Shown piece by piece: positions 5,258-27,692 of a DNA stretch of 64,000 nt (position 1 is the stretch's first letter; every line of letters begins with the position of its first letter). The notes below the pieces were generated by a model. That model was given only the letters and a program-made list of their open reading frames with translations, was not told the origin of the DNA and made no database searches. This DNA is from Dehalogenimonas sp. THU2 (GTDB lineage Bacteria > Chloroflexota > Dehalococcoidia > Dehalococcoidales > Dehalococcoidaceae), in the NCBI RefSeq assembly GCF_039749495.1, contig NZ_JBDLLU010000013.1, positions 1-64,000 on the forward strand. The letters run 5' to 3'. A program made the translations under genes and the position numbers.

Positions 5258-5286
5258 AAAGCCGCCGGTGAATCACCGGCGGCTTT
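5258..5286 (-). terminator. Terminator of paralog 3
   Basis: A perfect 13-bp stem (AAAGCCGCCGGTG and its complement) with a 3-nt loop; on the minus strand it is followed by TTTTATTTTATC. It lies 19 bp past the stop codon at 5306. Confidence 0.85.
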
Positions 5287-5305
5287 GAGATACGACCAGT
5301 CAGGT

Positions 5306-6535
5306 TTAACCGATACCGAAACCAGGAACATCATATTCATCAAGGATACCCTGCCCGACCATGGCATCAACCAGAATCTCATCGCCGTTGATAACGGCGA
5401 TTGCCGCGGCGTCGCCGCCGAGACCGTAGGTAAAGGTCAGCGTGGTGGCTTTATTCAGGGATTCAACATAGACAATAGCAAAAGCGAATCCTTCGGCGCC
5501 GCCAGCTACATCAACAAATACCCCCGGTTGATAGACGGAGACAGCCGGGCTGAAACTGATGTCCCCGTAAAAAAATTCCGCCTCCGAACTGTCGGTTCCG
5601 ATGCCCGAAAGCCCGAGGGATTCCCCTCCGCCATCAGCCATGGCAAAACCGTGGGTATTGAATTCACCACTCATCCCTTCCGGCAAGATGCCGACGACGG
5701 AAATAACCCCAGCCCGGCTGTTATTATCAGCGGTGGACCAGCTGTTGGCCGAGGCGATATTGCCCGGTCCGTAATTTCCGACAAGCGCCTGGGTGATGGA
5801 GCCGGCCCAACTTCCATTATTAGCCACAGCGGAGGCTTCCGCGTAAGCGCTGCCTTCTCCTTCCATAATACCCGCCATGACCATGTTGCCGGCGCTGCTG
5901 TTATTGGTAGCGGTGGCATCAGCTACAGCGGTGGCCGTTCCGGCGGCGGTAGAATGAAAGCCGTTCACTACCTGGGGCAGCGAGTCAGGTACGAACATAT
6001 CACCAGCGCCGTTAATTATGGCGGTGGTATAGTTTCCGGCTTGACTGTTACCCGTTGCCGTGGCGGTACTGGTGGCGGTAGCGGTCCCGGTAGCGTAATT
6101 GGTGATTATCGCTTCTGTCTCATTACCGGAATAGCTGTTGTCAATGGCCACGGCGCTACTGACGGCGGTGGCTGTCCCGGTGCTGTTATAGTCAATATCA
6201 GCGTAAGCCTCGTCATCGGCGCGGCTGTTACCGATGGCCTTCGCAGTGGTGATGGCGAAGGCTTGGCCGCTGGAGGAGTCAGTCTCGCTGGTTGAGAAAG
6301 TGAAGGTGGGTGGCGGTGAAGTCTGCCAGGGATTACCGATTTTGGCTTGCGCATAGGCATCGGCACTGCCGGATTCATCATGAATAGCTACTTTAGTGTC
6401 GGGAGTGGTGACTTTTGCGGCAGCCTCCGCATACCCGTCGGTATACACGTCGGCCAGTACCGCGGTCCCCACGCTCAGTAAACCAAAAAGGATCACAACG
6501 ATGGCGGCGGACAAAACTGAATGACGTTTCATCAT
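5306..6535 (-). CDS. Secreted Ala-rich repeat protein, paralog 3 of 6
   Basis: This is the largest member at 409 aa. The ATG at 6535 has AGGAG 7 bases upstream; a second ATG follows immediately at 6532. The signal peptide ends near AVLA-DVY. The body carries many near-repeats of the form TATAxATAxxNSxAGN, about 20-25 residues each, consistent with a solenoid rung. The C-terminal module (YQPGVFVDVAGG, GFAFAIVYV) is more diverged than in the other paralogs and lacks the DPTNIY core. It continues into a short tail, DEYDVPGFGIG. The upstream region is shared divergently with paralog 4. Confidence 0.8.
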   Translation of the reverse strand: MMKRHSVLSAAIVVILFGLLSVGTAVLADVYTDGYAEAAAKVTTPDTKVAIHDESGSADAYAQAKIGNPWQTSPPPTFTFSTSETDSSSGQAFAITTAKAIGNSRADDEAYADIDYNSTGTATAVSSAVAIDNSYSGNETEAIITNYATGTATATSTATATGNSQAGNYTTAIINGAGDMFVPDSLPQVVNGFHSTAAGTATAVADATATNNSSAGNMVMAGIMEGEGSAYAEASAVANNGSWAGSITQALVGNYGPGNIASANSWSTADNNSRAGVISVVGILPEGMSGEFNTHGFAMADGGGESLGLSGIGTDSSEAEFFYGDISFSPAVSVYQPGVFVDVAGGAEGFAFAIVYVESLNKATTLTFTYGLGGDAAAIAVINGDEILVDAMVGQGILDEYDVPGFGIG

Positions 6536-24309: not shown

Positions 24310-24318
24310 TGGCAGATG
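24310..24318. repeat. Left target-site duplication of the mobile element
   Basis: TGGCAGATG, repeated directly at 26507-26515 on the other side of the element. Confidence 0.85.
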
Positions 24319-24373
24319 GGTACTGTTCGGTTGTGGTGGAGACTTTATTTTGGGCGGTGGCTAAAAGACTTAG

Positions 24374-24658
24374 TTACGAAAATATCATACCGCAATCTTT
24401 ACACTGATAACGCTTTCCATTGAATATTTTTTCGATGTTCTTACTTTTGCATTGCGGGCATTTTTCTAACGCTTCGTATTTTGCCCGTTGAATCCTTTCC
24501 CAATCCGATGGCGAGCCTTGTATCATTTCCCAATCAGAACAACTTATAGAAGTCGTATCGCAACCATAAACACAGTTAGTATTGTATCTCAAGCAACTCA
24601 AGCATACATTAACCTTTGCTTTTTCGGGCTTCTTTTTACCAAACCATAAAAATCCCAT
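24374..24658 (-). CDS. Zinc-ribbon protein of the mobile element
   Basis: The 94-aa product has two cysteine clusters. The N-terminal NVCLSCLRYNTNCVYGCD (about 17-33) looks irregular. The C-terminal CPQCKSKNIEKIFNGKRYQCKDCG (about 67-90) is a regular two-knuckle zinc ribbon. Between them lies an acidic, Trp-containing linker. It is transcribed away from the transposase toward the left end. Such ribbons bind nucleic acid or serve as protein scaffolds; its role in transposition is unknown. Confidence 0.7.
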   Translation of the reverse strand: MGFLWFGKKKPEKAKVNVCLSCLRYNTNCVYGCDTTSISCSDWEMIQGSPSDWERIQRAKYEALEKCPQCKSKNIEKIFNGKRYQCKDCGMIFS

Positions 24659-24751
24659 GCGTGAATTATACCCGCTAAAATAATTATTGACAACGTAGCC
24701 ACCTTCGTTTTAGTATATAGACTTAACAAGGGTAATAAAGGACGGTCAATT

Positions 24752-24889
24752 ATGGCTATACCTAGAAAGAAACCCATAATCAAACGTTGCAAACGATGCG
24801 GACACGTTTGGATGGCAAGAGTTACACAACCCGTTGTTTGCCCCGCTTGCTCTAGCCCTTATTGGAATAAGCCAAGGCAAAAGAAGTAA
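24752..24889 (+). CDS. Small basic zinc-ribbon protein (45 aa), transposase leader gene
   Basis: The product MAIPRKKPIIKRCKRCGHVW...VVCPACSSPYW...RQKK has two CxxC knuckles and is strongly basic, as expected for a DNA- or RNA-binding ribbon. AAAGGA precedes the ATG at 24752. Its stop overlaps an ATG (TAATG, 24887-24891) that opens the upstream extension of the transposase frame, a typical translational coupling arrangement. Confidence 0.7.
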   Translation: MAIPRKKPIIKRCKRCGHVWMARVTQPVVCPACSSPYWNKPRQKK

Positions 24890-24915
24890 TGACGGACAAA
24901 GTAATCTATCAGGTG

Positions 24916-24918
24916 TAA
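24916..24918 (+). promoter_or_regulatory. In-frame UAA in the upstream transposase frame (possible recoding site)
   Basis: The frame ATG 24889 (MTDKVIYQV), TAA, GYGHRRKVSKYV continues without another stop into the transposase. The context is GTG-TAA-GGC. Readthrough by the element-borne tRNA is a hypothesis. Confidence 0.45.
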
Positions 24919-24939
24919 GGCTACGGCCACCGCCGGAAA

Positions 24940-25950
24940 GTGAGCAAGTACGTGTTAACCGATTTCGGGTGTAAGTACTGCGAGTCAACGAACGTCGTTA
25001 AATATGGGACGGTCAACGACGTTCAATATTGGTGGTGTAAAAAGTGCGAGCGGAAGTTTGCGGATAACAATGCCTTGCCCAATATGCGAAAACCGCAAAC
25101 CGAAATAGCATCGGCTTTAAGTGCTTTTTATTCCGGCATGAGCATCGACGAAGCGAGAATCCACCTAAGACAAGAATACGGGGATACACCTAGTGATTCT
25201 ACGGTCTATGAGTGGATTCAACGCTTTAGTGACGAAGCCAGTACCAAACTACGGGGATTAAAACCTAAAGTCGGGGATGTTTGGGTAGCCGATGAAACGG
25301 TTCTGGATTTAGACGGGCATAAGATATGGTTCTGGGACTTGATAGACGCCAAAACTAGGTTCCTACTCGCATCACACCTATCATACAGGCGGTCAACGGG
25401 TGATGCTCAATCACTGGTGATGAAAGCTATTAAGCGAGCCGGTAAATCGCCAAAGGTGATTCTAACCGATAAATTAGCCGCCTATTTAGACGGGATACCC
25501 AAAGCGGCGGGGCATTACGGGACGGGCGATATTGAACACTTACAAACTCATGGTTTCGGAAGCGAAACTAACACGAATCTTATCGAGCGTTTCCATTCCA
25601 CTTTGAAGGGACGAACGAAAGTCTTTAAGGGTTTAAAGTCGGTTGAATCAGCTATGACCATTCTTGACGGCTGGCTGGTTCATTACAACTTCTTTAAACC
25701 GCATGAGTCTTTAGAATGGCAAACGCCCGCCGAATATGCGGGGATCGAAAGCCCTTATTCAAACTGGCGGGATGTTGTAGCCGATAGCCGTTTGGATTCC
25801 CCGAATGTAATAACTGTTAGTTCAAAGCGATATGAAGCGGCAACAGTCGGGAAACCTTCACGCTTTGCCCAAAAGCGGCGGGTTAGACAATCTAAACCAC
25901 GAAAGGGGGTGACGCCTATGGCTGTAATTAGTAGCCCTAAAAAGCGTTAA
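24940..25950 (+). CDS. IS6-like DDE transposase with N-terminal zinc ribbon
   Basis: The 336-aa product is read from GTG 24940. An N-terminal zinc ribbon (CKYCESTNVV... WWCKKCERKF, about 11-41) and a helix-turn-helix-like region precede the catalytic core: D in VADETVLDLDG (about 118), D in VILTDKLAAY (about 166) and E in NLIERFHSTLKGR (about 206), the IS6/IS240 pattern. GTG 24940 has no Shine-Dalgarno. The same frame opens at ATG 24889, coupled to the preceding gene, but is broken by a single TAA at 24916-24918 (codon 10). If the element's UUA-anticodon tRNA reads that codon, the product gains 17 residues. Confidence 0.9.
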   Translation: MSKYVLTDFGCKYCESTNVVKYGTVNDVQYWWCKKCERKFADNNALPNMRKPQTEIASALSAFYSGMSIDEARIHLRQEYGDTPSDSTVYEWIQRFSDEASTKLRGLKPKVGDVWVADETVLDLDGHKIWFWDLIDAKTRFLLASHLSYRRSTGDAQSLVMKAIKRAGKSPKVILTDKLAAYLDGIPKAAGHYGTGDIEHLQTHGFGSETNTNLIERFHSTLKGRTKVFKGLKSVESAMTILDGWLVHYNFFKPHESLEWQTPAEYAGIESPYSNWRDVVADSRLDSPNVITVSSKRYEAATVGKPSRFAQKRRVRQSKPRKGVTPMAVISSPKKR

Positions 25951-25976
25951 CGGCTAAGTACTAGTTAGCCGTTAAC
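25946..25976 (+). terminator. Hairpin at the transposase stop codon
   Basis: A perfect 12-bp stem (GTTAACGGCTAA) with a 7-nt loop overlaps the stop codon and lies 17 bp before the tRNA. There is no clear U tract, so it may be a processing or weak termination site. Confidence 0.5.
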
Positions 25977-25992
25977 AAAGGTTTCCGCATCG

Positions 25993-26064
25993 GGGGGCTT
26001 CGTCTAATGGTCAGGACGACGGTCTTTAAAACCGATAGAGCCAGTTCAATTCTGGTAGCCCCCA
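25993..26064 (+). tRNA. Suppressor tRNA, anticodon UUA (reads UAA)
   Basis: The cloverleaf is complete: a 7-bp acceptor stem without mismatch (GGGGGCT with AGCCCCC), U8, a D arm GTC...GAC with GG in the loop, an anticodon stem ACGGT/ACCGA with one A-A mismatch at the first pair, and anticodon loop CTTTAAA. The T arm GCCAG/CTGGT has loop TTCAATT. Loop positions 34-36 are TTA, which decodes UAA and possibly UAG by wobble. The D arm (GTCTAATGGTCAGGAC) is tRNA-Glu-like and the anticodon arm is Gln-like, so one base change at position 36 could derive it from either. CCA is not encoded, unlike the five other tRNAs here. The amino acid is unknown. Confidence 0.85.
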
Positions 26065-26144
26065 CTTGTCTTTAATAGTACACCTAAACACGTTCAAAGT
26101 CAATAGTTTTACGAATAAAATACGATTGAAAGGTAGGTCTTAAT

Positions 26145-26345
26145 ATGGGTTCATTTTTCGGGCGTTTACTGCTTTTTATTCTGGGTGGGGCTTTGCTATT
26201 GGGTGGTATTTTTCTGATATTCTCCGCTATCGTTTCTATGCCCTTTGTCGCCGATTATACCGATTCATTTTGGTTAGTCGGACTACTAGGTGTAGTCGCC
26301 ATGTTAGCGGGGTCGTTTATCAGCCGCTTTGCCATTCACGGCTAA
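26145..26345 (+). CDS. Small two-helix membrane protein of the mobile element
   Basis: The 66-aa product has helices at about 6-30 and 41-60 separated by a short loop (ADYTDSF). AAAGGTAGG lies before the ATG. Its sequence is not recognised. A hairpin with a T-rich tail (26378-26414) lies 33 bp past the stop and could terminate the tRNA/membrane-protein transcript. Confidence 0.6.
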   Translation: MGSFFGRLLLFILGGALLLGGIFLIFSAIVSMPFVADYTDSFWLVGLLGVVAMLAGSFISRFAIHG

Positions 26346-26492
26346 GACAATAACCAAACCGCCTTGTATTATCATACCTAGCCCTACTAAAAATAGGGCT
26401 AGGTATTTTGTCGGCTCAAAGAACGTTAAGACAAAACCTACCCCGACATATACCAGAGACATTCTAAATAGGTGCTTTTTTAAATCAACCAT
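26304..26492 (-). CDS. Possible small membrane protein at the right end of the element
   Basis: The 62-aa frame has two hydrophobic stretches (about 11-27 and 32-53) and a charged C-terminus. It overlaps the end of the plus-strand gene at 26145-26345 and contains a terminator-like hairpin. No ribosome-binding site is visible. Coding is possible but unproven. Confidence 0.4.
   Translation of the reverse strand: MVDLKKHLFRMSLVYVGVGFVLTFFEPTKYLALFLVGLGMIIQGGLVIVLAVNGKAADKRPR
26378..26414 (+). terminator. Hairpin near the right end of the mobile element
   Basis: An 11-bp stem ACCTAGCCCTA with a 7-nt loop, followed by ATTTTG on the plus strand. Confidence 0.6.
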
Positions 26493-26506
26493 AACCGAAC
26501 AGTACC

Positions 26507-26515
26507 TGGCAGATG
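26507..26515. repeat. Right target-site duplication of the mobile element
   Basis: TGGCAGATG, identical to 24310-24318. Confidence 0.85.
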
Positions 26516-26533
26516 TATATCAGATATATTCAT

Positions 26534-26563
26534 TTGACAACTGCTGATTTTTCTGATTATACT
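26534..26563 (+). promoter_or_regulatory. Promoter of the AbrB-arsM pair
   Basis: TTGACA, an 18-bp spacer and TATACT, 19 bp outside the mobile element, so the insertion left the core promoter intact. Confidence 0.75.
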
Positions 26564-26590
26564 GATTTGTATCTATTTGCAGGGGCACTT

Positions 26591-26857
26591 ATGAACAAAG
26601 AAAAAACAACGGCTGATTCCTGCTGCGACACCGGCGAGTGCTGCCGTGTCGAAGCTGTGGTAAGCGTGGATGCCCGTGGGCAGTTGGTGCTGCCCAAGGA
26701 AGTGCGCGAAAGCATGGGTATAGCCGCGGGGGAAAAACTGGCGCTGGTGACCCTCAACCGCGGCGGGAAACCGTGCTGCCTGGTGATGATGAAAGCTGAA
26801 AAACTGGCCAAAGGCGCCAGTGAATTCCTCGGTCCGATTCTGAATGAAATTCCATAA
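26591..26857 (+). CDS. Cys-rich AbrB-family protein (HgcAB-associated type)
   Basis: The 88-aa product is read from ATG 26591 ([12 protein letters not shown]). A Cys-rich N-terminus (CCDTGECC, about 11-18) precedes a SpoVT/AbrB swapped-hairpin DNA-binding domain ([22 protein letters not shown]). A further CC pair sits at [10 protein letters not shown]. Similar proteins accompany arsM or hgcAB in anaerobes. The Cys pairs could bind As(III) or Hg(II), making it a candidate metalloid-responsive regulator. It is co-transcribed with arsM, 10 bp apart. Binding and regulation are inference. Confidence 0.8.
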
Positions 26858-26867
26858 GGAGACTGCG

Positions 26868-27692
26868 ATGAAAGACAACGATATCAAGAGTTATGTCAAG
26901 GAACGCTACGGCGGCATCGCCCGTTCGGGCGGGGGTTGCGGCTGCGGCTCCGGGTGCTGCGGTCCGGCGCCGGACACCATCGCCAAAGTCATCGGTTATT
27001 CCGAGGACGAACTGGCCGCGGTGCCGGAAGGCGCCAACCTCGGCCTGGGCTGCGGCAACCCTACCGCCATCGCCGCGCTGAAACCCGGTGAGACAGTTCT
27101 CGACCTGGGTTCCGGCGCAGGGTTCGACGCGTTTTTGGCGGCGCGGCAGGTCGGACCCGCCGGAAAAGTCATCGGGGTGGACATGACGCCGGACATGCTG
27201 TCCAAGGCCAGGGCGAACGCGGTCAAAGGCAGTATAACTAACGTCGAGTTCCGCCAGGGTGAGATAGAAGACCTGCCGGTCGAATCAGGCACTATCGACA
27301 CCATCATTTCCAACTGCGTCATTAACCTGTCGCCGGACAAACCGAAGGTATTCGCCGAGGCCTTCCGGGTGCTCAAGCCAGGCGGCCGCATCGCCGTTTC
27401 TGACATCGTGCTGACCGAACCCCTGCCCGACTATATCCGGGATTCTGTGGCGGCCTATACTGCCTGTGTGGCGGGGGCGATCCTGAAGGAAGAATATCTC
27501 GATGCTATAAAACAAGCGGGGTTCGAGGACATCGAGATCGCCGGGGAGAATGTCTTCGACCTGGATTTTCTGGATATGGCGCCGGAGTTGCTGAAAGAAG
27601 CGGCAGCGCTGGGACTGACCTTAGAGAAGATTGCGCACATCTCTGAGACGATCGTCAGTGTGAAGGTGTCGGCGTCGAAGCCGGCTGGCTAA
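26868..27692 (+). CDS. arsM: Arsenite methyltransferase
   Basis: The 274-aa product is read from ATG 26868 behind AAGGAG. It is a SAM-dependent class I methyltransferase: motif [12 protein letters not shown] (about 80), GVDMTPDML, and [11 protein letters not shown], where ArsM places a conserved arsenic-binding Cys. It has a Cys-rich N-terminal segment ([12 protein letters not shown], about 22-33) and a later Cys in AYTACVAG. It probably methylates As(III). It ends 4 bp inside tilS, which is convergent. Confidence 0.92.

Follow-up and report, generated by a model that had tools for sequence, protein, structure and literature searches.

Insertion sequences are known to restrain their transposases by frameshifting, antisense RNA and poor initiation. 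In IS1- and IS3-type transposases, programmed -1 frameshifting is used, and the inefficient decoding limits the amount of transposase that is made. Natural suppressor tRNAs are known from bacteria as well; Aeromonas salmonicida A449 has an amber suppressor tRNA-Trp that 21 genes apparently use (PMC2556355). In a partial coverage of the literature, no published report was found of an insertion sequence that carries a suppressor tRNA for its own transposase.

Within the IS6/IS26 family, the zinc-finger clade (clade h) includes ISDsp3 of Dehalococcoides, to which alone among the IS6 members there the searched passages of PMC7986276 ascribe a passenger gene; the same passages make no mention of readthrough in the IS6 family. 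We describe here a transposon in a 64,000-nucleotide stretch of DNA from Dehalogenimonas sp. THU2 (the whole stretch analysed, referred to as the window), together with a sister element from another genome. The transposon resembles clade h and ISDsp3, the latter from related bacteria, in its DDE_Tnp_IS240 domain, its N-terminal zinc ribbon and a transposase length of ~340 aa. IS6/IS26 elements, however, make an 8-bp target duplication and are ~0.8 kb long with a single transposase ORF, whereas the two complete elements reported here both have a 9-bp duplication, measure 2.2-6 kb and contain several passengers, an internal UAA and a tRNA. Because the duplication is 9 bp and the size and content differ, we call the element IS6-like and do not file it as IS6.

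Results

A transposon with an internal UAA in its transposase frame

A complete transposon of ~2.19 kb (2,188 bp) occupies positions 24319-26506 of the window, between terminal inverted repeats and target duplications. Its features are as follows.

24310-24318, no strand: left target-site duplication TGGCAGATG, 9 bp; the same 9-mer abuts both terminal repeats
24319-24340, plus strand: left terminal inverted repeat GGTACTGTTCGGTTGTGGTGGA, 22 nt, 91% complementary to 26485-26506
24374-24658, minus strand: passenger ORF, 94-aa zinc-ribbon protein; weak zinc-ribbon matches, under the Pfam cut-off
24752-24889, plus strand: 45-aa zinc-ribbon ORF ending TAA-TGA; its TAATG would couple it translationally to the transposase ATG
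24889-25950, plus strand: transposase frame, 353 aa with readthrough; zinc ribbon, HTH and DDE (DDE_Tnp_IS240)
25946-25976, plus strand: hairpin over the transposase stop, 5' of the tRNA, z -4.1
25993-26064, plus strand: putative suppressor tRNA, anticodon UUA, CCA not encoded
26145-26345, plus strand: 66-aa small membrane-protein ORF (passenger)
26301-26492, minus strand: 63-aa small hydrophobic ORF, starting within the right terminal repeat (tentative passenger)
26485-26506, minus strand: right terminal inverted repeat
26507-26515, no strand: right target-site duplication TGGCAGATG

The terminal repeat has only two matches in the window, against 0.04 expected by chance, and the element's ends are of the GG-NN-CTGTT type, which we take to be that of IS6 ends. 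The element is present once in its genome and has a G+C content of 44%, compared with 57% for the window and 59% for the flanks. Its insertion site lies directly 5' of an ORF for an AbrB-like regulator and of an arsenite-methyltransferase-like gene (26513-27692; named by eye), and the target duplication on the right overlaps the earliest start that the regulator ORF could use. On the minus strand, the hairpin at 25946-25976 is terminator-like as well. None of the promoter candidates was considered reliable.

The transposase matched PF13610 (E 1e-18; 68.2 bits against a cut-off of 27), and IS26 was 27.6% identical to it over 80% of the query. From the ATG at 24889-24891 the frame reads MTDKVIYQV*GYGHRRKVSKYVLTDFGCKYC... 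and has exactly one internal stop, a TAA at codon 10 (24916-24918), beyond which it is open to the TAA at 25948-25950. An earlier note on this DNA had described this single in-frame UAA and an ATG overlapping the preceding stop codon; its coordinates were right, and the ATG does overlap the TAA (24887-24889) of the 45-aa zinc-ribbon ORF. The other ORFs of the element showed no further internal UAA. In the host, UAA is an ordinary stop that terminates 19 of the 44 long ORFs in the window, and there is therefore no code change.

The reading frame does not change across the UAA, and there is no pair of overlapping frames joined by a slippery site. Because the frame is identical on both sides, a frameshift before the UAA cannot substitute for suppression, and ribosomes that enter the frame anywhere 5' of codon 10, also by slipping from the zinc-ribbon ORF, still encounter this stop. 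Only two canonical starts lie between it and the first CxxC, namely GTG 24940 (codon 18), ~22 nt 3' of the UAA, and GTG 24952 (codon 22). On direct reading, the GTG at 24940-24942 was without a properly spaced Shine-Dalgarno sequence, in agreement with the earlier note. RNA structure 3' of the UAA was neither unusually stable nor shared by the two elements (z -0.01, -0.82), which favours a tRNA over a cis-acting signal.

Downstream of the transposase and between the terminal repeats, ARAGORN and Rfam both call a tRNA with a UUA anticodon at 25993-26065 (61.4 bits). The tRNA to which the earlier note had pointed as UAA-reading is present, and it is internal to the same element. No ribozyme family of Rfam was matched.

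A diverged sister element with an aligned UAA and its own tRNA-UUA

A sister element was found at G609 C20:17020-22998, in a genome from another family of the same order. It has ends with a 19/21 match, is flanked by the 9-bp target duplication AGAGAAAAA and is 5,979 bp long, a nested insertion included. Both elements have the same gene order of zinc-ribbon ORF, transposase with an early UAA, hairpin and tRNA-UUA, the sister's own tRNA-UUA being 33 nt downstream of its transposase. A stop-reading tRNA, by its UUA anticodon, is thereby encoded in each of them, with decoding predicted. The sister's zinc-ribbon ORF (L102:1184-1315) is directly upstream of the transposase, and 32 of 43 aligned codons are identical, the stop included. 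The junction of the two frames differs, the overlapping TAATG being specific to the window and the sister having TAG-AT-ATG. A hairpin (L102:4554-4588; z -4.6) lies over the sister's transposase stop, shortly 5' of the tRNA, in the same position with another sequence; processing or insulation are guesses at its role.

After the equivalent ATG, the sister frame reads MEKIVFKV*ANYRKHRKVYKYTLTEFGCKHC, its stop again being UAA. The UAA is codon 10 in the window and codon 9 in the sister, and the N-termini (MTDKVIYQV*...RRKVSKYVLTDFGCKYC in the window, MEKIVFKV*...HRKVYKYTLTEFGCKHC in the sister) align through DKVIYQV*/EKIVFKV*. Without gaps the stops are one codon apart, and two compensating one-residue gaps align both the stops and the flanking similarities. 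The sister transposase is split by a nested insertion (L102:1446-3574), a different IS6-like element with ends GGTTCTCATGCA and an 8-bp duplication CTTGAAGG, so that only its past state informs. An initial reading of this transposase as 5'-truncated was dropped, as the larger region shows the 5' part upstream of the nested insertion. The sister also carries, on the minus strand, a passenger resembling a DNA methyltransferase (CGDCLKKLKEIPDESIDLIYIDPPF; G609 C20:17238-18585) that is absent from the window's element and, near its right end, two tandem paralogues of ~61 aa (L102:5068-5253 and 5265-5450).

The two transposases are ~57% identical and ~1.3 changes per site apart, and the UAA and the tRNA have therefore outlasted a long divergence. 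In a tree of 40 transposases they formed a two-member clade (support 100/98). Shuffles of the codons on both sides of the UAA put the similarity of the two elements at the protein level at p = 5e-5; taken separately, the part before the UAA had p = 3e-4 and the part from there to the GTG position 0.01. This conservation is apparent in DKVIYQV*/EKIVFKV* and in (H)RKVxKYxLT(D/E)FGCK, and the differences were mostly at third codon positions (18/11/30 for the N-terminal piece, 110/86/177 for the remainder). The sister has no ATG, GTG or TTG from the UAA to the zinc-ribbon CxxC, and its codon at the position of GTG 24940 is GTC; the window GTG is therefore not a conserved alternative start.

The tRNAs of the two elements are 83% identical, compared with ~65% for the genes, and keep the UUA anticodon. 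Two compensatory changes separate their T-stems; a comparison of two sequences makes for a weak shuffle control of these changes (140 of 500). Each tRNA has one mismatch in the anticodon stem. The tRNA body is Glu/Gln-like. Assigning the amino acid by similarity was abandoned, since Gln and Glu tRNAs matched best at ~70%, yet G1-C72 and A73 fit either poorly. A covariance-model search of 393 genomes of the class (threshold E 1e-9) gave 99.7 bits for the tRNA in the genomes of both elements, and the next best match, at 63 bits, was a tRNA-Glu. The next matches that were checked (61-63 bits) were ordinary tRNA-Glu. No further tRNA of this kind was found besides those of the two elements, either by pattern in 156 genomes of the order or by the covariance model in the 393. 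The small zinc-ribbon ORF recurs widely in the class (46 of 393 genomes), and neither this transposase nor a stop-reading tRNA stood beside it at the other loci fetched.

The earlier note had asked whether relatives conserve the N-terminus with its UAA or start at the GTG position. The sister, the only close relative found, conserves the extension and the UAA, keeps the UUA tRNA and has GTC at the GTG position, whereas many transposases of the wider family lack the extension and begin 2-12 residues ahead of the CxxC. Of 45 other homologues, 44 have an uninterrupted frame with a canonical start ahead of the CxxC. Some 44 other transposases of the family have no UAA, no tRNA and ordinary starts, and no UUA, CUA or UCA tRNA was present in any other locus fetched. 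Because those relatives have neither the UAA nor the tRNA, their short starts have no bearing on the clade of window and sister. One relative without the tRNA (L009) encodes Thr where the UAA stands and has an ATG one codon ahead of the GTG position; when the UAA of the query was read as Gln, its match extended further into the N-terminal region by ~10 bits (325.4 against 315.3 bits).

An archaeal relative of the transposase (L006:480-640) lacks a canonical start from an upstream TAG to the CxxC, with several more stops beyond that TAG. Some relatives appeared to have internal stops, and the two inspected were terminal stops. When the tRNA and the transposase were sought in phage and plasmid collections and in IMG/VR, the searches returned distant IS26 relatives at most. 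Two loose pattern matches in viral contigs, with neither tRNA nor transposase, were put down to chance.

Discussion

The best explanation of these data is that the element's tRNA suppresses the UAA of its transposase and thereby limits or licenses transposition, a reading that we regard, from sequence, as probable. The pair of UAA and tRNA is known from two elements with a single origin, and because the distant sister keeps both, the pair is probably a selected control rather than damage. Translation of the transposase would be coupled to the small zinc-ribbon gene and begin at ATG 24889, with the conserved UAA nine codons on. The tRNA would very probably be processed from the transposase transcript, or be made from a promoter close by, 3' of the transposase. 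We infer that it is charged, that it competes with release factors at the UAA and that it inserts an amino acid there. A small share of ribosomes would then make full-length transposase with its DNA-binding zinc ribbon, while the rest would release a 9-residue peptide. Transposase output would follow the accumulation of the suppressor, and the regulatory benefit may lie in a coherent feed-forward gate with low output. The earlier note's proposal, in which full-length transposase requires activity of the element's own tRNA, is reasonable as a model on this evidence.

The start of the protein is where the main rival enters. Under coupled re-initiation, the UAA would end a 9-aa leader, translation would resume at GTG 24940 and the tRNA would be unrelated. 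The GTG lies ~22 nt past the UAA, many distant relatives begin 2-12 residues ahead of the CxxC, and L009 could start at its ATG one codon before the GTG position. Re-initiation is nevertheless unlikely, given that the GTG is without a spaced Shine-Dalgarno sequence, that the sister has GTC in its place and no start codon before the CxxC, that the codons before the UAA and from the UAA to the GTG are conserved as protein, and that the co-conserved UUA tRNA would be left without explanation. In the window, the GTG at codon 18 could still give some unsuppressed, minor product. Readthrough by a cis-acting signal or a near-cognate host tRNA, which would need no tRNA of the element, has been suggested for numerous prokaryotic genes that contain internal stops (PMC7918605). 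The lack of an unusually stable or shared structure 3' of the UAA, and the presence of a matching tRNA in the same element in both cases, make it improbable here.

Suppression by the element's own tRNA could also be directed mainly at other genes. The tRNA might act on genes of the host or of competitors that end in UAA, of which the 19 in the window suggest many, or tie the element to hosts competent to charge it; the transposase UAA would then be an internal addiction that makes the tRNA indispensable to the element. We consider this decidedly unlikely as the main role, since the element's other ORFs showed no further internal UAA and broad suppression would probably be costly to the host. 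It concerns purpose more than mechanism, because readthrough of the transposase is still required, and internal addiction is compatible with the gating proposed here as a second reading. Decay, with the UAA as a nonsense mutation of a dying copy and the tRNA as a captured passenger, is barely credible. The element is single copy in its genome and a later insertion breaks the sister; against this, two diverged elements have the UAA at an aligned place, their long frames are otherwise intact and under purifying selection, the terminal repeats and target duplications are intact, and the tRNA has compensatory changes. It is also very unlikely that two unrelated assemblies would share an error of sequencing or assembly at one place.

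If suppression is confirmed, control through a suppressor tRNA that the element itself encodes would be a new principle among the known restraints on insertion sequences, and stop-codon suppression would be seen to gate one gene outside phages. What a mobile element gains from a suppressor tRNA would become a directly testable question, and some transposases annotated as broken or late-starting may prove to be suppressed genes. The tRNA itself is a putative natural ochre suppressor from a little-studied bacterial class.

Set beside known systems, the element would share with IS1- and IS3-type frameshifting the limiting of transposase by inefficient decoding, here through suppression of a stop by a self-encoded tRNA. 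In crAss-like and other phages, a tRNA of the mobile genome likewise reads the stop of the phage's own gene in a standard-code host (PMC9523058, PMC10879173), but there the code is switched over many genes, whereas here one UAA in one gene of a transposon is concerned. The A449 tRNA-Trp is also a natural bacterial suppressor with target genes, but it reads UAG and serves many host genes rather than an element's own control. The proposed gate has a parallel in design in the engineered 'leak dampener' of E. coli, in which a stop just after the start and a co-regulated suppressor tRNA form a coherent feed-forward gate (PMC7969014); that circuit is synthetic and uses amber or opal stops, whereas the present one is natural, ochre and contained within one element. 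To us such a circuit is known only in engineered form, and on balance we lean towards regarding this element as its natural and heritable counterpart, a self-licensing transposon in which one stop and a suppressor tRNA in cis would form a dose-dependent feed-forward gate in a standard-code host.
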